This document shows, piece after piece, positions 6,700 through 19,482 of a stretch of DNA of 23,154 nucleotides. Below the pieces are notes generated by a model, which was not told where the DNA came from, searched no databases, and was given only the letters and a program-made list of their open reading frames with translations. Positions within the stretch are counted from its first letter, which is position 1. Each line of letters starts with the position of its first letter. The position numbers were made by a program, and so were the translations under genes. Source of the DNA: a virus; the IMG/VR virus record IMGVR_UViG_3300029448_000238, positions 7,863-31,016 of that record. The stretch is one strand, 5' to 3'.

Positions 6700-8022
6700 A
6701 TGAAAAAGTTCTTCCTGTTTAGAAGACAAGAGGTGTCTAAATCGAGCACCTTTGCGTCAGACTCTGGAGTAGGCCTAGACCTCCTTGGGGTGTCTGCCGA
6801 CTTGCTTGCATTTATGACGGCGGAAGAAGGGAAGGTAAAGATCGTCTTTAACAATGCTACCCCCTACGAAGACAACAACCTTGTCGATGGGGACTCTATG
6901 CAGAAGACCAGCGTAACCGTAGGATGTGAGGTGGGGAAAGAGCTGGATGTGATAGAGTCTATCATGAAGTTTGTCGGTAGCGAGACCGTAAGGTCTAACG
7001 TCATGAAGTTTGACGCAGTCGATGGATTCTCTAACCTAAAAAACGTAAGCCTTTCTGGTGTCTCTGATGTCGTCAGTCAAGTCAGGAAGACTCCTGTAGA
7101 GCGCACAAGTGGAGAAGCTTCTACACGTACGTTCCTTGGCGGGACAGCTGGGACAGCTCTTGGGACCCCCAACACTATACAAGGCATTGATTTTGGATCA
7201 ACAGACGCCAAGCCTATTATTGACTATAATGAGTCTGGTATTACGGTTTCATCAGGAACTACTATTAACGGGTGGACAAATGCTGGCACTGGAGGGACAG
7301 ATTACAACGCTACAACAAACGGCTCCCCTAACAAAATCACGGCTGTAGGAAGAACTGGTAGCGGACTTTCTACCGTTGCTGCAGAAGTAACTACTGTAAC
7401 CTACTTCATCGTTTCCACAGAGTTTTTTGTGGAGGGCAGTTTCACTATGTATATGGTTCTTTCAGAAACCCCATCTAATATTATAACTAACAATGGAGGT
7501 AGGGTTATGAGAGGTAACTTCTTTTCTAGTGACGGCGGGACATGCTTTGGACTGGGTGGTCTTAACGAACTTGCAGAGAATAAGTTTGCAATACGCTTTG
7601 ACACCTTTACAGGGGCTCCTGCTACTGGATCAGGAAACGTAGCTCAGCAAACGACCGATGAGTCTCAGATAGAAACAATAGCTGTGCTTGTTGTCCGAAG
7701 AGATGATAATAACGTGATTTACATTCACGACAACACGGGTCAAGTTGTTTCAATAATATCAGATCAAAATAATTCTTTTACACCTGAAGATGCAGAGGCA
7801 GGGTTTATTGAAGTCGAAACTATAGATCCAACAAGCCTTAATGCGTCAGGCAGAACTGATGGCAACCTTGCTATAAAGAATTTTGGCCAAGGCCTCGGCG
7901 CTGAGGAGCCAAAGTTTGCGGGACACATAGGTCGATTTGGAGTTATTCAAAAAGATATAGGCACAGAGCGAGCCGCCAAACTCGCTACTGATTTGCACAG
8001 TTTATACAAACCAATTTCTTAA
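6700..8022 (+). CDS. Lectin-like (concanavalin-type) virion fibre protein (440 residues)
   Basis: The start is the ATG after the promoter; a nearby ATG at 6695 runs into a stop after two codons. Residues 1-130 form an N-terminal unit (KVKIVFNNATPYEDNN, then VTVGCEVGKELDVIESIMKFVG) that could anchor the protein on the particle. Residues from about 140 to 437 resemble a laminin-G/concanavalin A-like jelly roll: SFTMYMVLSE near 246, AIRFDTF near 300, IYIHDNTGQV near 345, and a final strand GHIGRFGVIQKDIG near 407 followed by ERAAKLATDLHSLY, which is the usual ending of such domains. The likely role is binding host surface glycans. It shares a transcription unit with the next gene. Confidence 0.6.
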   Translation: MKKFFLFRRQEVSKSSTFASDSGVGLDLLGVSADLLAFMTAEEGKVKIVFNNATPYEDNNLVDGDSMQKTSVTVGCEVGKELDVIESIMKFVGSETVRSNVMKFDAVDGFSNLKNVSLSGVSDVVSQVRKTPVERTSGEASTRTFLGGTAGTALGTPNTIQGIDFGSTDAKPIIDYNESGITVSSGTTINGWTNAGTGGTDYNATTNGSPNKITAVGRTGSGLSTVAAEVTTVTYFIVSTEFFVEGSFTMYMVLSETPSNIITNNGGRVMRGNFFSSDGGTCFGLGGLNELAENKFAIRFDTFTGAPATGSGNVAQQTTDESQIETIAVLVVRRDDNNVIYIHDNTGQVVSIISDQNNSFTPEDAEAGFIEVETIDPTSLNASGRTDGNLAIKNFGQGLGAEEPKFAGHIGRFGVIQKDIGTERAAKLATDLHSLYKPIS

Positions 8023-9737: not shown

Positions 9738-10606
9738 GTTACGTAGATTACTCTACAAAGGGGATGGCCTACCTTCCCCTTCGCCAGATTATAGATGATT
9801 TTTTAATCACCAATGACGCAGACGATTATACTGCTAACGTATCTGACGTTACTGTAAGAAACCTTGCTCTTCGTGGCATTAGAGAGTTTGGCTTTGACGT
9901 AACAACACGTGTAAAGTCTCTTAAGCTGGCAATCGACAGTTCCAATGACACTGTTATTCTACCTACAGACTTTGTAGATGTCATCAAGGTTGGTGTTGTA
10001 GATGGTGATGGTATCATTCGCGTTATGCGTCACAACAAGAACATCAACTTCTCTCAGAAGATTGATTCAGACGACGCGACAGCTACTGATGTTGATGCAG
10101 AGGATGGTCCTCTTATGATTCAGCAAAACGCTGATCTTATCCCCAACAAGACTGACGACAAGACAGCTACTTCAGGTAGTGAAGAAGGCAACTCTGACAG
10201 CCTTAGAGAGGATGTTTTTAGAAACTACCTTTATCAAAACACTATCGGCGCTCTCTACGGAATGGGTGGGGGAGTAGGGGCTGGCGAGTATAGAGTAAAT
10301 CTCGATCAATTTAGACTTGAGATTGCCACTAACTCTTCTGTCACAGAGGTTGTTATAGAGTACATCTCTGACGAGGCTCGTAGCACCAACCCTTTGATTC
10401 ACGTGTATGCAGAAGAAGCCTTGAGGTCTTACATATACTACAAGGTCTGCGAAAGAAAGAGAAACGTCCCTGCGGGAGAGAAGGCTAGAGCCAGAGCTGA
10501 GTACTACAACGAAAGGCGCAAGGCTAGAGCTAGGATGAACTCCGTCTCAAAAGACGACATCCTTGGTATGTTGAGAAAGAACTTTAAGCAGGCACCAAAA
10601 TACTAA
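9734..10606 (+). CDS. Head-tail connector/adaptor-like protein (290 residues)
   Basis: The order of elements fits connector proteins of podoviruses: a helical start with VRNLALRGIREFGFDVTTRVKSL (residues 42-64), a beta region with VILPTDFVDVIKVGVVDGDG (75-95), a variable acidic loop with a low-complexity stretch (110-160), then YRVNLDQFRLEIATNSS and VVIEYISDEAR, and a long helix with EEALRSYIYYKVCERKRNVP and KARARAEYYNERRKARARMN. The LP-x-D-F-V-D/Y and x-x-E-Y-I-S elements are those I know from tail tubular protein A-like and crAss-like neck proteins. The ATG overlaps the upstream stop (ATGA) and its stop overlaps the giant tail gene (TAATG), so the three are co-translated. Confidence 0.6.
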   Translation: MSYVDYSTKGMAYLPLRQIIDDFLITNDADDYTANVSDVTVRNLALRGIREFGFDVTTRVKSLKLAIDSSNDTVILPTDFVDVIKVGVVDGDGIIRVMRHNKNINFSQKIDSDDATATDVDAEDGPLMIQQNADLIPNKTDDKTATSGSEEGNSDSLREDVFRNYLYQNTIGALYGMGGGVGAGEYRVNLDQFRLEIATNSSVTEVVIEYISDEARSTNPLIHVYAEEALRSYIYYKVCERKRNVPAGEKARARAEYYNERRKARARMNSVSKDDILGMLRKNFKQAPKY

Positions 10607-13600
10607 TGGCTACAAATAAAGTATACCCTAGAATCCTTTCTAAGTCCAGCGATGCTAGGCTAAGAAAAAAAACAGAGATGCTCGATGCAGTCAATGTGCG
10701 GGCATATGAGTCTAATGACGAGTACCATGGTGATTCAGGTGAGGAGACATCAGGGGGCAACGAAGGTATTCTAAAGCCTGTACGAGGCAATGAGCTTGTA
10801 GATATACAAGAGGCTATAAACGACCCAGAGGGTCGAGGGCGCTCAGGAGGATACAGCGTCATTGGAAGCGTTTCTGATGAGGCTAGAGGCAGCATATACT
10901 ACTTTATGTGGCATAGCGACCCAACTAAGCACGCTGTCTTGCGGTATGTTGACGGCGAGGAAAAAGAGCTTGCTACGATTATCCAAACAAAGTGGCTCAA
11001 CTTCTACTACAACTCTGTGGTTCAAGGGAGTATCACGCATGTTTCTAGCGCTGAGTATGGTCAGGGTACGGGAGAAAAGGCCTTCTTGTACTTCACGGAC
11101 AACTACAATGAGCCTAGGTGCCTGGACATTGAGGCGTGCTTAACGACTTCTCTTAACACATTGACTGACAAGGATATAGTTGAGTTTATCTCTCTTTGTC
11201 CTATAACACCTACGCGGCCTATATTTTTTGAGTGGGACTATGACCCTTCTATTACGATAAGTAACTTTGCAAACTCTAGAGGCGTTCAGTTTGCTTATCA
11301 AAACGTATTTAAGAATGGTACGGTAAGTGCTTTTTCTGTGTATTCCAAGCTGGCTGTCAACCCAGCATACCTGTCTCAAGGTTCTGATCCTACACCAGAG
11401 GTAGACGCATACAACTACATAAAGGTTAGAATACCTACTCAGAGCGATAACGTAGAGTCTATCCGTCTCTACGGAAGGGAGGGCAACCAAGGCCCATGGT
11501 TCTTTATTGACGACTTCAGAGAAAGCGAGACGGCTAATGGAACTTCTTGGTACGGTCCAAACGGAGGATACTATACGTCTCTTTCTAACGGCGACCCTGC
11601 CGTTCCTGTAACGTACAACACGTTTAAGTACTACAACAACAACGTTGTATCATACGTGCCTGAGGATATAACCTTCAAGCAGTTTGATAGCGTACCTAAG
11701 CTTGCAGAAGCTATAGCCCTGTCTAACGATAGGATTTTTATGGGCAACTACGTAGAAGGATTCGATAAGGTTGACGTCTCTGCAAGGCTGTCTTACATAT
11801 CTAGAGAGCGGCCTGACGACTTCACCTCTCTTGACATCAATATGTTTTCTGAAGTCAGAGAAATTGGCAGCCAAGGGGGGGTGAAGAACAGGATTAGTGG
11901 GTATAGGCTAGATATGTCTGATGCTCCAGCTAGTATTGAGGCTGGGACCACACTAAACATCAACATTACAATAAACCCTGACGCCAACATACACCTTTAT
12001 CAATCTAAGGATAGCTTTCACTCTAGCGTCTTTACGACGTTTAATGACCCTAATGACCCAAGCCTTCTTCAGGATAAAGTTACAAATCCTAATAAACAAA
12101 GCAGTAGTTTTTTTAACCCATTAAGGCAGTGTGCAGGTAAGGTTTCAGATCAAACTCGCTCTAAGTTTGGAAAATCGTTTACTATAAAAGATATAGGATT
12201 TGATCCTTTGGCTTCTGTTACTGGAACTTCGCAGAATCAGGCTTCAGCCTCATGGTCCTCTACTGATGGTGAGATAGATGTAGCGTATGGTACATCGGCT
12301 TCTAACCCCCTTATCATACAAGGGAAGCCTATGTCTTTTTTTCTTAGAATCTTTATAAACAACACGATTACTAAGTCTGACCTCTCTAACCTCATAGGCG
12401 AGATTCTTTCAGGCAAAGAAGTTATCCCACCAAGAGTTGGTGGTGGTGGCCCTGGGCAGATTGTTTCTAATGATGTATTGGTTCTTGACGTAAAGAACAC
12501 TGCTGGGTATCAGGTGAACTGCGGTCTAGGAGACTTGAGCTACATTCAAACAGGTGATTCTAACTCAAGAAAAATTTGTTTTGTTGTAGAAAGGGCTTTG
12601 GCAGAGCAGACATCTGGGCCACAGGGCGTACCTCCTTGCGGTTACTTTATTCTTAATAAGGCAGATGTTGTTTTTGGATTGAATAGAGTTAAGAACAACA
12701 CCAATGTCTTTGACCCTAGTAGGAAATACGATTCCTTTACTTACGAAGACCTTGCTTTTGCTGGCACGCCTTCTGCTCAAACAGATGATGTGTTCTTTTC
12801 TCTTGACTTAAAGTCTATAAGTAACGAGCAAGTTCTTACTTGCCTTCCTGACATGAGAGGTGGATACATGCCAACTTCAAATGTTGCAGTAGGTAAAGCT
12901 GTTGAGGTGTTTTTTGACAACAACAATACCATTTCCGACGCCCCAGACTTTTCTGATGCAGGTCCTAATGGCCAAAACATGGGGGGGCTTAACACAATTT
13001 TCCGATGGGTCTGCGTTGGTGCAAGCACGTCATATAGACTTAAAACTGGGTCTATCAGCCCTTCAGAACTTCTTGGAAGATTTGGACCATCTTGGAGTAG
13101 AGAAGATGTTTCAAGCATCATTAACGGCAATTATGTTGGGGGTAAGTTTGCAAATATTGGAGTAAATAGTGTTCAGTTTACTGCTACTAATTTGGCTGGT
13201 CAGCTTTTCCCCATAGATTTAGTAACTACTACTAGTCCTGTATTTACAGAGCAAATCAAAAGGCTTGTTGGGTTTCTTAAATTTCCTGGGAGGTCAGTAA
13301 GTGTTGGAGGAGTAGAAACGGATGATGGAGGTATTGTTTTTAGGGATGGTAACGACGGTCAGAGCGTTGTAGGCACCCTTCAGGTCGGATCTATTGTCTG
13401 TACAAGAGATAGAATTATAGGTGAGCTAAATAGACAGTTTGAGGCTGACATTAACGAGGTTGATAACGCTCAGTCAGTTATAATAGACCTTCTTGGGTAC
13501 AGTATTGTTGATGGAGAGTCAGGACCAGGTAGCAATAATAATGTTGGGTCTATAAACTCCTCCATGGTCAGAGATGGTATTTTGTATCACTATGCTGGCC

Positions 13601-16600
13601 AAAGCTTGTCACCTGGCCCAACTGCAGCGACCTTCCAGCAGCTTTATAATCCATTGGGCACTGGAGAAGGAAATATTTTTGGGATTAACGGTAACTTTGG
13701 AACAGATGGCCAAGTAGCCACTAACACAGGCACAGGTAGTTTTGAATTAGCCCTAGGGTATTACACCAATGTCTTTGACAACTATATGGGTTACCTAGAT
13801 ACAGCTGGGCTCACACCTACAGATCTTACATCTACAAACTTAAACGAAGATATAGAAACATACGATGGGCAGCTTGATAAAGACATAAAGCTGTCAGCTG
13901 CAAACATTTCTGTAGAAGCTGCGCTGCTTGAGATTTCCGAGAATGTATATCAAATTACAGATCCATTGGGATGGTATAGACAGTTTATACCCAACATAGA
14001 AATAACTCTTCAGCAGTCGTTTATACAGTTTTCTGGAGGTGACGCAGCAGACAGAAAGACTTTTAAAAGCAACGCCAACCACAGCTTTGGTATTGTATAC
14101 TCTGATTTCTATGGGAGGCAAAGCAGTGTGTTTCCTTTGGGGTCTGCTTTTGTACCTCCATACGAGCAACAATCTAATGGTAATGGGGGAGCTGTAGATA
14201 TGCAGATAAACCTTCTGCACGACCCTCCTGAGTGGGCTCACTCATATCAGATGGTTTATGGGGGTAATACATCTTACAACCAGTTTATTCAATACTCAGC
14301 GGGCGGGGCTTTTGTTTTGCCTAATGTGTTTGAAGAAAATGACGATCAGGGCTCTGTATCGACAGGCAACATATACGTATCTCTAAACTATCTGCAAGAG
14401 AACTCTGACGTATCGTATGCAAATGCTTTTGGCGCTAAGCCTTCAGACGGGTCTGATAGGTTTTACGAGTACCGCCCAGGCGATAAGCTTAGAATTATAT
14501 CTTATTACGAAGGGGGAGCTAGGCGCTTTGCCAACAACTATGTATTTGACGTGGTGGGTACTGCTACGCTTGGTGATAGTGATAACCCCTTGCATCCATT
14601 TAATGACGGCGATCCTGTCCCAAACTTTAAAAAGGGAAGCTTTGTCATCTTGAGAAACAATCCTCAGGCGGTTGGCTTTAGCGTTTCGTCGATTAAGGCT
14701 GGCCTTAACACCTTGCCTTCGACTGATTCTTTGTGGAACAACAGGTGCATCTTTGAGCTGTACTCTCCTGCTTCTTTGCAGGATCTAGAGGAAAGGCCTT
14801 TTTATGAGATGGGGGAGTCGTACAAGGTTATCAAAGACACCACTGGTGCAGAGCCAGTGATTACTCACCAGTACAACCCTATGGTTTTGACTGATGGTGA
14901 CGTATACTTTAGGCGCCATGCTGTCAACCTGCCTACACTTTCTGGAGGTGACTACCAAAGTATCATCAACGCGGAGGCTGCATCAACGCCTTCTTTCTTT
15001 AACTACTACCTGGAGTCTTCTACCTTCAACGACAACATCGTCAATGCAGACCAGCACGACTACGGAAGGATAAAGGCTGTGGTTCCTAATGCCTCAGAGA
15101 TAAGGCGGTACGCTAGTGTCATCTTCTCTGATCAAGACGACTACTCTGATACGCAGCTTAGACTTAACTCTTTTGATGCTACGAAGAGACCGTTTAAAGA
15201 TCTCCCCAATACGTACGGAAACATTGGGTGCATATTGGACTACAACGACTCTCTTTTTGTTTTGCAACAAACCAAGGTTAGTCAGTTGCCAGTCAACAGA
15301 ACAATCTTGTCCGATGTCTCAGGCAACGATGCTGTCGTTGCTACATCTAAGGTTCTTGGAAATCAAAGATACTATGCTGGTGAGAACGGATGTGACACCA
15401 ACCCAGAGTCCGTAGCGGTTGTAGGGAACACTATATACTGGGTCAACAAGCAAAAAGCTAAGGTTTATAAGTTCAACCCAGCTAATGGCATTACAGCCAT
15501 CTCTGATATAGGCATGAAGTCTTACTTCAAAGACCTTTTTGATGGGTTGAGCATCCTTAATAAGGCTTCTGGCGGCACCCTTAGGGTGGTAGGCGGCTAT
15601 GACCCTACGCATGATGAGTACATACTATCTGCTTACGATCAGGAGATGTACGACTTTACCCCTGACGTCATACCAGACCTTGAGGAAGAAGCGCCTGACG
15701 AGGATACTTTTGACGATCAAACTATAGACACTACAGGAGACCTTACTGCTGAAGAAGAGGCTGCGTTGCAAGCTTCTCTAGATGCGGCGCTGGCAAATCA
15801 GGCCAATGATCTAGCCACTATTGCAGATCTGCAGCAACAGATACAAGATCTTTTAGCTCAGATAAATACAGAGACAGATAATAATGACGGTATACCTCCT
15901 GAGTCTATTTATGACCTCAATGAAGAGATCATAGAGATAAACAACGAGGCTGACGATCTTGTGGAGCTTATTATTCAAAATGTAGATGCTCAAGTAGCTG
16001 ACCATCAGGCTACTCTGGATTTGGCCAACACGGTTGTAGCAGCTGCTGGAACTCTTATTGAGCAGCTTGGGTTTAGCAATAACATTTTTGACCCAAGCAG
16101 TCCGTTTATAGACTTGCAAAACGATCCAGTAACTTTCTTAGGCGTTGATTACGACACGGGATTGGATGCTGCAGCTGCGGTGGTTTCAGAGAGAGACGCG
16201 GCTCAAGCTTTTGCTGATGCCTTTCTTGACGGAGACGATCAAGAAGAGGTGCGTTCTGGCCAACCTTTTGTATTTACGATTGGTTATGGTGCAGGACCTA
16301 ACCCTGATCCAGAATCTTTTATTGCTCTTAACGACAACGCTACGTACAACTCAAGAAAAAATGAGCTAAACCTGGTGAGGCAGGCGATAGCTACTTTCGG
16401 TACTACAGAGCTAATTGACGATCTAAAGGGCGACGTTGATACTTTGACTGGAGAGGTTACCTCTTTGGAAGGCGACAAGCAAGATCTTCTAAACCAGATA
16501 TATCAACTGGCTTTTGAGATGGAGGGCGGAGGCATCCCTGATGTTGATGTGCCTAACCCCAATGACATTGATGCCGAGCTGAGTGACTTTACAGAGGCGT

Positions 16601-18471
16601 TTGGTGATGGCGTAACAGACAGTGATCTTCCAGATGGACTTAATATTATTAAAGCTATCACAGACACGGAGGGTGATCCAACTCAGCTAGAGGATATCTT
16701 TTTTACAGAGGGGTCCTTTACAGGGTTGCCTTCTAATGCAATAAGTGATTACATCTCAGCTGCTGTAAAGAAAAACCTGACTGACCCCAGTAGAGCACGA
16801 AGGATTACTGACTATAATCAGATTGAGCCGCTTACAATAACTAGAGATAGTTTTGCACAGGCCTTTGTTGACAACCTTGCGGCTCAGCAGCTGGCTAGTT
16901 CTGACAGTGTCACAGACCTTCTGGATGGACTTAACGATTACCTCGGAGAGGGCATAGCAGCCATTCTTCTTAGTGACCCAAGCTTGGAAACAGTTTTTAG
17001 CTCGTTTGACATTGATGCCAATGGGACGGTTACTTTGTCGGAAATTGAAACGGTTTTCCCCATTTCGGCGTTTGAAAATGCCCTAGAGGACGCCTTTACT
17101 GTTGAAGGCGGGGAGCCTCCTGTTGTAGTTGGCACCTGGGAGCAAGATGAAACCTTCAGAGATGTCTTTGGTGAGTTGCTTGACGAGGTACTTGACGTAG
17201 GGGAGGACTTGGGGCTAAAGGATGAAACTGATCAGTCAAACACAACCGTAAACAACACGTCTCAAGCGGGATATAGTCTAGCGGGTATTGGTGATTTAAC
17301 TGAATTAAGATTGATTACAAATGACTATAGATGGGTTACGGGCGATGCTGATTTTATTAAAGAATCTGTCAATCAAGTACGAAGAAGGCTTGTAAGCGAC
17401 GACAACAGTTATGCTACCATAACCAAACTTATATCGCGGATAGAAGACGAGTTTGTCAATATAACCACAAGGCCTTTTGAAGAGGGGTACAGCAAAAACA
17501 ATTTGGTTTTTTCTAGCACTTCGGATCAAAACCTATGGGAAGATACATTTAAGTTTTCTGGGTTAAGACCTATCTGGGCGCAAGTGTGGGGTGATGCTGT
17601 TAGTCTACTAAAAACAGACCTTGACGACGTGCTGCAAGCACTAAAGGATTTCCAGAACTTGACCGCTGCTGTTGACGAAGAAGACATTTCATCCTTTACA
17701 TCGGACGACAACAATCAAGAAGACGTAACAGTAACCTTTGATCCTCCTCCTTCATTGGTTGCTCAAGACAGGACGGCTACTAGTCTAGACGGCCCTACAG
17801 CTGGTGACTTGCTGACGGGTCAAAACTTTACTGCTACCTCAACAGACCAGAATGCTTTTCCTCAAAAAGTAGAGGTTCACAGTGCATTTTATGGGCTTAG
17901 CGCAGCTATGGACAGAGCAAATAAAAGGATTAACGACCTTGTGGACCAAGGGCCTGCATATATAGAAAACTACGGGATAAGAGTCTCAAACCCTGCAGGA
18001 GAAAGCCTTTTGGAGGAAGGAACTGATGGTAGTTTCTTGGACCTTCCAGAAGAACAACAAAACCTCAGAGCCATTATATCTGATACTACGTCAACTGATC
18101 TGGCGGCTTCTTTTGGCACAGTTACCGCTGATGACATTGCCACGAGGGTATCTCAATCTCTTAATCCAAATAGTGAGTTTTTTAACAACAGCTTTGCTGA
18201 TTTTGTAAGAGATGAGTTTTTGATACCTGCTCAAAGCAGCGGAAATCTTGGGGCAACAAGCGGCGACCTCGACGGCGACGGCCTCGTTGCGACTTCAGAC
18301 TTGCTTTCCTTCTTGGCCAACTTCGGCGGCACCCCCGCCTCATCACCAAACTTGACCGCCGCAAGTTTTGATATTTTGATTAGCGATTTGCAAGAATTCG
18401 GTCAAAGCGCTAATGCTTTTGACGAGAATAGCGCTAGTGCCGATGTTTACGGCGGCCAAGGAGAAACTTAA
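10606..18471 (+). CDS. Giant tail nozzle/muzzle-like protein (2621 residues) with coiled-coil, EF-hand and dockerin-like extension
   Basis: Residues 25-37 (MLDAVNVRAYESN) and the GN near 61 match the start of T7 gp12-like and crAss-like nozzle proteins. A second signature (FKSNANHSFGIVYSDFYGR, from residue 1153) and a third (NPESVAVVGNTIYWVN near 1597, ISDIGMKSYF near 1633, GGYDPTHDEYILSAYDQ near 1665-1681) support a beta-propeller-like tail-tip body. Residues 430-1150 look like a large insertion between the first two signatures. From residue 1686 an unusual 936-residue extension follows: an acidic stretch, coiled coils at about 1713-1760 and 1919-1972, an EF-hand loop at 2135-2146 (DIDANGTVTLSE), and a dockerin-like loop at 2554-2565 (DLDGDGLVATSD) followed by LLSFLANFG. 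The usual C-terminal domain of the family appears to be the separate next gene. Nozzle role is inferred. Confidence 0.65.
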   Translation: MATNKVYPRILSKSSDARLRKKTEMLDAVNVRAYESNDEYHGDSGEETSGGNEGILKPVRGNELVDIQEAINDPEGRGRSGGYSVIGSVSDEARGSIYYFMWHSDPTKHAVLRYVDGEEKELATIIQTKWLNFYYNSVVQGSITHVSSAEYGQGTGEKAFLYFTDNYNEPRCLDIEACLTTSLNTLTDKDIVEFISLCPITPTRPIFFEWDYDPSITISNFANSRGVQFAYQNVFKNGTVSAFSVYSKLAVNPAYLSQGSDPTPEVDAYNYIKVRIPTQSDNVESIRLYGREGNQGPWFFIDDFRESETANGTSWYGPNGGYYTSLSNGDPAVPVTYNTFKYYNNNVVSYVPEDITFKQFDSVPKLAEAIALSNDRIFMGNYVEGFDKVDVSARLSYISRERPDDFTSLDINMFSEVREIGSQGGVKNRISGYRLDMSDAPASIEAGTTLNINITINPDANIHLYQSKDSFHSSVFTTFNDPNDPSLLQDKVTNPNKQSSSFFNPLRQCAGKVSDQTRSKFGKSFTIKDIGFDPLASVTGTSQNQASASWSSTDGEIDVAYGTSASNPLIIQGKPMSFFLRIFINNTITKSDLSNLIGEILSGKEVIPPRVGGGGPGQIVSNDVLVLDVKNTAGYQVNCGLGDLSYIQTGDSNSRKICFVVERALAEQTSGPQGVPPCGYFILNKADVVFGLNRVKNNTNVFDPSRKYDSFTYEDLAFAGTPSAQTDDVFFSLDLKSISNEQVLTCLPDMRGGYMPTSNVAVGKAVEVFFDNNNTISDAPDFSDAGPNGQNMGGLNTIFRWVCVGASTSYRLKTGSISPSELLGRFGPSWSREDVSSIINGNYVGGKFANIGVNSVQFTATNLAGQLFPIDLVTTTSPVFTEQIKRLVGFLKFPGRSVSVGGVETDDGGIVFRDGNDGQSVVGTLQVGSIVCTRDRIIGELNRQFEADINEVDNAQSVIIDLLGYSIVDGESGPGSNNNVGSINSSMVRDGILYHYAGQSLSPGPTAATFQQLYNPLGTGEGNIFGINGNFGTDGQVATNTGTGSFELALGYYTNVFDNYMGYLDTAGLTPTDLTSTNLNEDIETYDGQLDKDIKLSAANISVEAALLEISENVYQITDPLGWYRQFIPNIEITLQQSFIQFSGGDAADRKTFKSNANHSFGIVYSDFYGRQSSVFPLGSAFVPPYEQQSNGNGGAVDMQINLLHDPPEWAHSYQMVYGGNTSYNQFIQYSAGGAFVLPNVFEENDDQGSVSTGNIYVSLNYLQENSDVSYANAFGAKPSDGSDRFYEYRPGDKLRIISYYEGGARRFANNYVFDVVGTATLGDSDNPLHPFNDGDPVPNFKKGSFVILRNNPQAVGFSVSSIKAGLNTLPSTDSLWNNRCIFELYSPASLQDLEERPFYEMGESYKVIKDTTGAEPVITHQYNPMVLTDGDVYFRRHAVNLPTLSGGDYQSIINAEAASTPSFFNYYLESSTFNDNIVNADQHDYGRIKAVVPNASEIRRYASVIFSDQDDYSDTQLRLNSFDATKRPFKDLPNTYGNIGCILDYNDSLFVLQQTKVSQLPVNRTILSDVSGNDAVVATSKVLGNQRYYAGENGCDTNPESVAVVGNTIYWVNKQKAKVYKFNPANGITAISDIGMKSYFKDLFDGLSILNKASGGTLRVVGGYDPTHDEYILSAYDQEMYDFTPDVIPDLEEEAPDEDTFDDQTIDTTGDLTAEEEAALQASLDAALANQANDLATIADLQQQIQDLLAQINTETDNNDGIPPESIYDLNEEIIEINNEADDLVELIIQNVDAQVADHQATLDLANTVVAAAGTLIEQLGFSNNIFDPSSPFIDLQNDPVTFLGVDYDTGLDAAAAVVSERDAAQAFADAFLDGDDQEEVRSGQPFVFTIGYGAGPNPDPESFIALNDNATYNSRKNELNLVRQAIATFGTTELIDDLKGDVDTLTGEVTSLEGDKQDLLNQIYQLAFEMEGGGIPDVDVPNPNDIDAELSDFTEAFGDGVTDSDLPDGLNIIKAITDTEGDPTQLEDIFFTEGSFTGLPSNAISDYISAAVKKNLTDPSRARRITDYNQIEPLTITRDSFAQAFVDNLAAQQLASSDSVTDLLDGLNDYLGEGIAAILLSDPSLETVFSSFDIDANGTVTLSEIETVFPISAFENALEDAFTVEGGEPPVVVGTWEQDETFRDVFGELLDEVLDVGEDLGLKDETDQSNTTVNNTSQAGYSLAGIGDLTELRLITNDYRWVTGDADFIKESVNQVRRRLVSDDNSYATITKLISRIEDEFVNITTRPFEEGYSKNNLVFSSTSDQNLWEDTFKFSGLRPIWAQVWGDAVSLLKTDLDDVLQALKDFQNLTAAVDEEDISSFTSDDNNQEDVTVTFDPPPSLVAQDRTATSLDGPTAGDLLTGQNFTATSTDQNAFPQKVEVHSAFYGLSAAMDRANKRINDLVDQGPAYIENYGIRVSNPAGESLLEEGTDGSFLDLPEEQQNLRAIISDTTSTDLAASFGTVTADDIATRVSQSLNPNSEFFNNSFADFVRDEFLIPAQSSGNLGATSGDLDGDGLVATSDLLSFLANFGGTPASSPNLTAASFDILISDLQEFGQSANAFDENSASADVYGGQGET
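18250..18360 (+). other. GC-rich dockerin-like segment inside the giant tail gene
   Basis: Bases 18241-18360 contain 74 G or C out of 120 (62%), against 22 of 60 in the 60 bases before and 21 of 60 in the 60 bases after (by hand count). The encoded stretch is G-D-L-D-G-D-G-L-V-A-T-S-D-L-L-S-F-L-A-N, with calcium ligands D at loop positions 1, 3, 5 and 12 and G at position 6. Codons shift to GCC, GGC, CTC and GAC. This looks like a segment acquired from a bacterial gene. Confidence 0.65.
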
Positions 18472-18483
18472 TAAAACAATGGT

Positions 18484-19482
18484 ATGCCAACGATAGGATT
18501 CAACAATAAAAGCAACAAGTGGACCAGCAAGTATACCTATGCTGCGTCTTGCTTTGGCAGGGTAAACAATAAGTTTTTCTCTTCGCCTGCAAGCCCAACC
18601 ACCAACGGAAGTTACGATTCACCTATATGGGAGCACGACAAGTCTAGCGATTACAATAAGTTCTACGGAACTGCAAGTGCAAGTAAGTTTTCCGTGACTT
18701 TTGCTGACAACCCTTCTCAGAACAAGATATACAAGTCCTTGTCTCTTGAGGGCACCAAGAACCTAAATGGATCTTTTTGTGTGGTTAAGACGTCTAACAA
18801 CTTGGACAAGGATGGATCTCCAGACACCAACGTAAACGTAGATATCGTAAGAAATATCAACGGCACGAGCTACGGGCCTGTAGGTAGAGACAGAACCATG
18901 GTGCCTGGAAAGACGTTTGTTATTTTAGGCAGGGTCATGAGAAACCGTTTTGGAAATGGCGTAGAGTCTGTAGCCCCTAACGCTGAAGGAACCCATGGCG
19001 CATACTTTAAGGTCTTTCTTGATCCTACTACAGGTATAACACCGCAAGTACATCAGAACCAAGAAGTTAGGATGAAGGTAGCGGCCATGGCTATTAGTGG
19101 CGATGTAGCTACTGTTTTTTATGGGGGAGAAAGTAGCGAAACCCTTAGCAGCGTTATAGGACAACCTTTTTCTAGCATTTCACCTAAGTCTACAAGCGAA
19201 GCTTTGCTTAATCAAAACAAAAAAGTTTCTGCGTATAGCTCAATAGACAACAGCTTTAATTACGAATCGACTAATTCAGCGCTTTCTATTTCTATAAACG
19301 GACTTGTAAACCTTACTGATGACGTATACCTAGTGGGCCTAGTAAACCCTGAGTTTGCTGGTGATACAGCCAGAGGGCAATACGTAGAGTGTAGCGTCGA
19401 AGTACCTGTAAGTAAGGGGTACTTTGAGGTGTTTTGTGCTAACTTGAATTATGAGCCTATTCAGTTGGCTCATGATAAATGA
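18484..19482 (+). CDS. Virion protein resembling the C-terminal domain of nozzle proteins (332 residues)
   Basis: The N-terminus has GFNNKSNKWTSKYTYAAS, then SPIWEHDKSSDYNKFYGTAS, then NPSQNKIYKSLSLEGT. I know this order (nK-W-x-S-x-Y-S, then lW-x-H-x-x-x-x-x-FYG, then N-x-x-x-x-K-x-x-x-S-L-x-x-E-G) as the usual C-terminal domain of T7 gp12-like and crAss-like tail proteins, where it follows a GYDPxxxEYxxS element directly. Here that element is in the preceding gene, so the domain appears to be a separate polypeptide. The rest of the protein is beta-rich (TFVILGRVMRNRFG, VRMKVAAMAISGD, GYFEVFCANLNYEP). An earlier ATG at 18479 hits a stop within six codons, so 18484 is the start. It follows the giant tail gene by 12 bases. 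Confidence 0.6.
   Translation: MPTIGFNNKSNKWTSKYTYAASCFGRVNNKFFSSPASPTTNGSYDSPIWEHDKSSDYNKFYGTASASKFSVTFADNPSQNKIYKSLSLEGTKNLNGSFCVVKTSNNLDKDGSPDTNVNVDIVRNINGTSYGPVGRDRTMVPGKTFVILGRVMRNRFGNGVESVAPNAEGTHGAYFKVFLDPTTGITPQVHQNQEVRMKVAAMAISGDVATVFYGGESSETLSSVIGQPFSSISPKSTSEALLNQNKKVSAYSSIDNSFNYESTNSALSISINGLVNLTDDVYLVGLVNPEFAGDTARGQYVECSVEVPVSKGYFEVFCANLNYEPIQLAHDK

Follow-up and report, generated by a model that had tools for sequence, protein, structure and literature searches.

Near the 3′ end of a very long tail gene of a marine virus, a short GC-rich block encodes a calcium-loop motif, and the question is where this block came from and what it could do on a virion protein. The window, i.e., the whole stretch of DNA analyzed, comprises 23,154 nucleotides and spans positions 7863 to 31016 of a virus record (L077) that is 31,016 bases long. 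A run of N is present just ahead of the window start (record about 7841-7862), in or beside a collagen-like fibre ORF, and represents an assembly gap or a masked stretch. The features discussed, in window positions, are the following:

10606-18471, + strand: gene for the muzzle (tail-tip) protein, 2621 aa, of a marine crAss-like phage (PF25731, phrog_14478, homologues)
15658-18468, + strand: C-terminal extension of the muzzle, approximately 930 aa, ending with the module (comparison with relatives)
17008-17043, + strand: canonical EF-hand loop DIDANGTVTLSE in a helix-loop-helix, aa 2127-2150 (EF-hand models, below cut-offs)
18250-18363, + strand: GC-rich block with foreign codon use (GC3 shift, codon fit)
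18265-18300, + strand: predicted Ca-binding loop DLDGDGLVATSD, D1/D3/D5/D12, with the dockerin-type Asp at 12 (translation, HMM, PSSM)
18301-18327, + strand: F-helix LLSFLANFG of the loop-helix module (DLLxFL..(F/Y)G is invariant in phage and host alignments)
18367-18405, + strand: FDILISDLQEFGQ, a putative degenerate second helix without a loop (direct reading of the sequence)
18484-19482, + strand: separate ORF, crAss muzzle C-terminal domain (PF25729 crAss_MUZ_C, E 7.4e-6)

The muzzle gene and its extension

Translation confirmed that the ORF at 10606-18471 is open and encodes 2621 aa. The core of the product (aa 1532-1680) matched PF25731 crAss_MUZ with an E-value of 7.4e-12 and 44.7 bits, above the 27 bits required for a Crassvirus muzzle; the product also matched phrog_14478 (virion structural, E 6.6e-88), and distant homologues were found in Flavobacterium, Cellulophaga, Tenacibaculum and Maribacter phages. 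From these matches and homologues we conclude that the gene codes for the muzzle protein of a marine crAss-like phage. In PhicrAss001 the muzzle is a hexameric tail-tip assembly with a beta-propeller and a crass fold, which forms the tail end and gates ejection, and whose length varies through insertions that alter its surface (PMC10172136). The crAss muzzle is thus tail-terminal, and contact with the cell surface has been attributed, as a presumed role, to its variable parts (PMC10172136).

Relatives whose muzzle is full-length (1308-1484 aa, or 1863 aa in the case of G005) lack the extension. G002, another relative, does have the first part of the extension, up to the contig end at aa 1804. 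When viral contigs were searched with the full-length muzzle and with the extension as queries, no relatives were found. An AlphaFold model of the extension, computed without an alignment, was of low confidence (pLDDT 34) and was set aside. In relatives the C-terminal muzzle domain lies inside the muzzle ORF or right after the core (L018, L178, L088); in the window the order is muzzle core, 930-aa extension, and then the C-terminal domain as an ORF of its own.

The muzzle copy of the module is seen in one record only, since the contigs of the closest relatives stop before that point. This, together with the N run elsewhere in the record, would agree with an assembly chimera or a functionless chance insertion. 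For a chimera, however, two joins no more than ∼110 bases apart would both have to be in frame, and the frame remains open through the block and for another 46-47 residues; furthermore, the module is present in other virion genes of related phages. We consider an artefact or chance insertion very unlikely.

Sequence and composition of the module

The sequence DLDGDGLVATSDLLSFLANFG is encoded at 18265-18327 (aa 2554-2574 of the muzzle), and translation bore out the loop ligands D1, D3, D5 and D12 that the initial annotation had read in this tail gene. The loop-helix was matched by the module HMM with an i-E of 7e-9. As in type I dockerins, DLDGDGLVATSD has Asp/Asn at positions 1, 3 and 5 and Asp at 12; the two repeats of type I dockerins, in contrast, are reduced here to one full loop and the loop-less FDILISDLQEFGQ half. 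By its sequence, FDILISDLQEFGQ may correspond to the second half of a dockerin repeat pair, and L002 appears to be similarly arranged: at L002 6158-6922, a lipoprotein-like ORF, which overlaps a terminase-like gene by one base, carries DFDADGLVATSDL and a loop-less second half. The muzzle module contains no Cys, and, with 46-47 residues after it, is not at the exact C-terminus.

Taken alone, the module missed the cut-offs of both dockerin models, with 12.7 bits (E 0.15) vs 22.9 for Dockerin_1 (PF00404), and 16.4 vs 29 bits for the GC-type dockerin NF041540. When PDB chains were searched with a profile of the phage modules, the best match was the dockerin 2y3n (E 1.5e-5), ahead of calmodulins. 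The sub-cut-off scores and 2y3n as the best structure match indicate that the module resembles dockerins without belonging to a curated dockerin family. Its matches to curated EF-hand models were likewise below cut-off. A lack of any dockerin or EF-hand similarity had been named as a reason to drop the idea; such matches exist, but they are sub-threshold, so that the idea survives weakly. No match to the module was obtained by tblastn among 50,697 phage records.

A second loop, overlooked in the initial annotation, is present upstream in the same extension. The sequence FDIDANGTVTLSEIETVF contains a canonical EF-hand loop (aa 2135-2146), in which the ligands are canonical and flanking helices are present. 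EF-hand_7 (E 0.004) and EF-hand_6 (E 0.006) matched the helix-loop-helix of aa 2127-2150, both below the curated cut-offs, and none of the bit-score cut-offs was reached (PF13499, 17.9/30; PF13405, 16.8/25; PF00036, 14.9/25.4).

The sharp GC spike reported for this locus was confirmed: G+C was 0.61 over the 120 bases at 18220-18339, and 0.64 in the 72-base core of the block, vs 0.448 for the whole window. The observed GC3 of the block was 0.75-0.83, vs 0.37-0.38 expected from its amino acids and the codon use of the phage; over the ∼110 bases with the strongest shift it was 0.80 vs 0.38 (z 4.9). In the codon-usage analysis suggested in the initial annotation the block was the most GC3-shifted coding stretch of the 31-kb record (z 4.7-4.9) at window sizes of 24, 30 and 36 codons, with z values of 4.73, 4.88 and 4.87, respectively, vs 3.71, 3.40 and 3.63 for the runner-up stretches. 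Since GC3 was scored given the amino acids and the phage codons, the shift is not just a matter of Gly, Asp and Ala codons, and a motif-only artefact of a Gly/Asp-rich sequence could be ruled out. The block codons fitted the usage of GC-rich marine Flavobacteriales over that of the phage itself by up to 15.4 nats, and host-contig usage was better than phage usage for 63 of the 66 contigs tested. Because the G002 contig ends at the start of the extension, composition alone is informative on how old the module is in relation to the extension.

A C-terminal tag of marine Flavobacteriales and related phage modules

The pattern D[LF][DN]GDGxVxTxDLLxFLxxFG, which the muzzle module matches exactly, was scanned in 84,980 bacterial and archaeal genomes (GTDB). 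It returned 71 stretches, ∼95% of them from uncultured marine Flavobacteriales/Bacteroidetes and C-terminal; nearly all the assemblies with matches were uncultured marine Flavobacteriales, Crocinitomicaceae or Bacteroidetes. Nearly all the stretches form the final 24-26 residues of long proteins and lie between two cysteines, as in CPGDLDGDGLVATPDLLSFLSVFGTTCE. This agrees with the proposal that similar segments end proteins of marine Bacteroidetes. The single-loop, Cys-flanked form of this host tag, CPGDLDGDGLVATPDLLSFLSVFGTxC, is the C-terminus of secreted proteins. A profile of the tag detected 46-109 copies per genome, single- or double-loop, in 11 marine Flavobacteriales genomes (G012-G025), the G024 count being an "at least" value, from 150 of 228 candidates scored. 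Among sampled loci, 48 of 48 final repeats were exactly C-terminal; the nine further repeats each came first in a tandem pair. The tag-bearing genomes carry 36-150 type IX secretion tail domains each.

Five tag-bearing genomes gave 13-32 matches each to NF041540, vs none in 14 control genomes, and tandem host tags exceed the cut-off of this model. Hence the tag is partly known as GC-type dockerin, with the single-loop tags mostly outside the model. The partner of a dockerin is cohesin, and Pfam cohesin PF00963 was absent from 15 host-like genomes, which makes ordinary cohesin-dockerin pairing an improbable account. The tag is a large, little-described C-terminal family of abundant uncultured marine bacteria for which no cohesin partner was found, and our literature search found no paper on it.

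The best nucleotide match of the block was a host tag, with 56 of 72 bases and 20 of 24 aa identical. Fourteen of the 20 shared residues used the same codon, vs 8.8 expected from host usage (p 0.008), a value that is uncorrected for picking the best tag and is not significant when ∼70 tags are allowed for.

Modules that share the core were also found in many viral contigs. In relatives of the window phage (with identities of 72-82% for terL, 64-67% for the portal, or ∼51% for the capsid) they are part of fibre-like proteins, whose genes are located in the interval from the portal region to the capsid gene, where the window phage has no module. Homologous tail proteins with the same segment and the same composition throughout, which the initial annotation had named as evidence against capture, were not what was found: the other phage modules are in different proteins, with the composition of their own genomes. 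A PSSM comparison, with the scored sequence left out, placed the muzzle module with the host tags, by a margin of 10.9 nats over the phage modules; for comparison, the 95th percentile of phage modules was 1.9 and the median of host tags 5.0. The idea that a fibre module had moved horizontally into the muzzle from another, related phage was rejected as the main account, as both module and codons fit host tags better.

The tag distribution, the PSSM value (+10.9) and the codon fit give good support to the proposed capture from a gene of marine Bacteroidetes, and on these grounds we would put the confidence that the block is of bacterial (marine Flavobacteriales) origin at about three quarters. 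That what was captured is a dockerin holds in part: neither of the two cysteines that flank the host tag is left in the phage copy, and no Pfam cohesin was found in the 15 genomes. Copies of the module in phage virion proteins are without the cysteines, which are kept in phage-encoded secreted proteins (M43 proteases and the 126-aa L004 type). Such a split would be expected if virion proteins fold in the cytoplasm and secreted ones outside the cell. Among phage-encoded secreted proteins, those of 124-134 aa in L004, L005, L009, L010, L016, L029 and others, on viral contigs of up to 178 kb, end in a Cys-containing host-type tag. A truncated M43 metalloprotease is encoded beside terL in the window phage (record 1-681, - strand, outside the window), and M43 homologues occur in the module-bearing phages L064, L068 and L023; those of other viral contigs have a pair of dockerin-like repeats together with a type IX secretion-like tail. 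Small dockerin-like ORFs on the strand opposite to their neighbours were seen in L015 (3058-4215 region), where the ORF adjoins a terminase-like gene, and in L069 (6778-6966); each of these contigs also has a module in a virion-like protein of 675-683 aa. Our literature search found no paper on dockerins in phage virions.

The window phage encodes a further dockerin-like protein at its terminase gene:

Record 1202-1366 (outside the window), + strand: mini-dockerin MQDFLDFMQEVAGFYNSFGTDNKTYDYDGDGVVTVLDWLEFLSNQPWF, 48 aa (48-54 aa), overlapping the terL start (L077)

Its loop pattern was found in 24 contigs, and in 24 of 24 the gene was at terL; the terL products of these contigs are 78-100% identical. 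Among 16 distinct mini-dockerin sequences, mean pS was 0.74 and pN 0.046 (pN/pS about 0.06); the pattern fixes just part of the loop half, and the N-terminal half is equally conserved. The mini-dockerin is thus under strong purifying selection. AlphaFold predicted a helix-loop-helix (pLDDT 90), whose best fold match was the dockerin 2y3n (TM 0.65 of query, rmsd 1.4 Å, probability 0.90, E 0.27), followed by another dockerin. By tblastn against the 50,697 phage records, the mini-dockerin of the window phage gave no match, and that of the L065 type only chance-level matches. The latter type is a different marine phage, in which a 49-aa relative is encoded directly upstream of a portal-like gene (L065 10587-10736, L044 12-188 and some 15 further loci).

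In marine crAss-like phages, the terminase gene is accompanied by the gene of a very small, strongly conserved dockerin-like protein. This conservation, the overlap with the terL start in all 24 contigs and the dockerin fold match would suit a phage-internal docking, in which virion modules and the 48-aa mini-dockerin bind each other or share a partner during assembly; fibre-like modules do occur in the same phage family, and G005 has both. The muzzle module, however, is closer to host tags than to phage modules, and in L065-type phages the mini-dockerin is present with no other module detected. We regard internal docking as improbable.

A possible role at the tail tip

Marine Flavobacteriales, which are presumably also the hosts of the phage, end many secreted proteins in a Cys-flanked, putatively Ca-binding loop-helix tag. 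Recombination could have brought the coding end of one such tag gene, minus the cysteines and the stop codon, into the lineage-specific extension of the muzzle. Once in seawater, the loop would take up Ca2+, and the module would fold at the tail tip, where it would make a Ca-dependent contact, most likely with a host surface component that recognizes or packs the host tags, and this contact would help the muzzle to engage the cell. We see about an even chance that a host tag end was captured in this way and mediates Ca-dependent contact at the tail tip. If so, the phage has placed the address label of secreted host proteins on the part of its particle that touches the cell, and the module points to a possible means by which the virus binds or mimics the host surface.

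A purely structural role is possible, though we hold it to be rather unlikely. A Ca-stabilized loop-helix, together with the EF-hand of aa 2135-2146, would fold in the ∼10 mM Ca2+ of seawater and stiffen or cap the long extension, with no host partner. It agrees with such a role that one extension holds two candidate Ca-loops, that like modules recur between other domains in the fibre-like proteins of related phages, and that the host cysteines are missing from the phage copies; the foreign codons and the host-tag-like sequence, however, ask for a recent bacterial source rather than for refinement in place.

Captured-tag contact with the host could also be part of something wider. It is conceivable, but doubtful, that the phages of marine Bacteroidota possess their own dockerin-like system for docking, made of the fibre and muzzle modules and the 48-aa mini-dockerin produced with the terminase. 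Both its source and its target would be a C-terminal tag system, as yet undescribed and independent of cohesin, by which dozens of surface proteins would be organized in marine Flavobacteriales.

Among known systems, the gene neighbourhood in the window record (capsid, portal and terL) is that of a crAss-like phage, and its muzzle shares the protein core with gp44 of PhicrAss001 (crAss_MUZ). It differs in adding the 930-aa extension with the EF-hand and the dockerin-like module, and in having the C-terminal domain moved to its own ORF. The GC-type dockerin NF041540 shares with the module a D-x-D/N-x-D/N-G loop followed by a DLLxFL helix, and with the host tag the C-terminal place on secreted proteins; the muzzle copy, in contrast, has one loop, is without cysteine and is part of a virion protein, and it is not at the exact C-terminus, whereas host tags are C-terminal with flanking cysteines. 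With type I dockerins (PF00404, 2y3n) it has in common the Asp at position 12 of the Ca-loop, but it has one loop instead of two and the helix motif LLxFLxxFG, and no Pfam cohesin was found in the host-like genomes. BACON domains, also of host type, occur in tail proteins of crAss-like phages, which belong to the same phage order (PMC6949934). Like the module, BACON is a domain type common to Bacteroidetes hosts, is borne on the tail and has been proposed to bind the host (PMC6949934). It differs in having an unrelated, carbohydrate-associated fold, in forming tandem arrays, and in coming from gut rather than marine phages. With these tail-borne BACON repeats, other crAss-like phages offer an earlier example of a tail protein that contains a domain of host type (PMC6949934).
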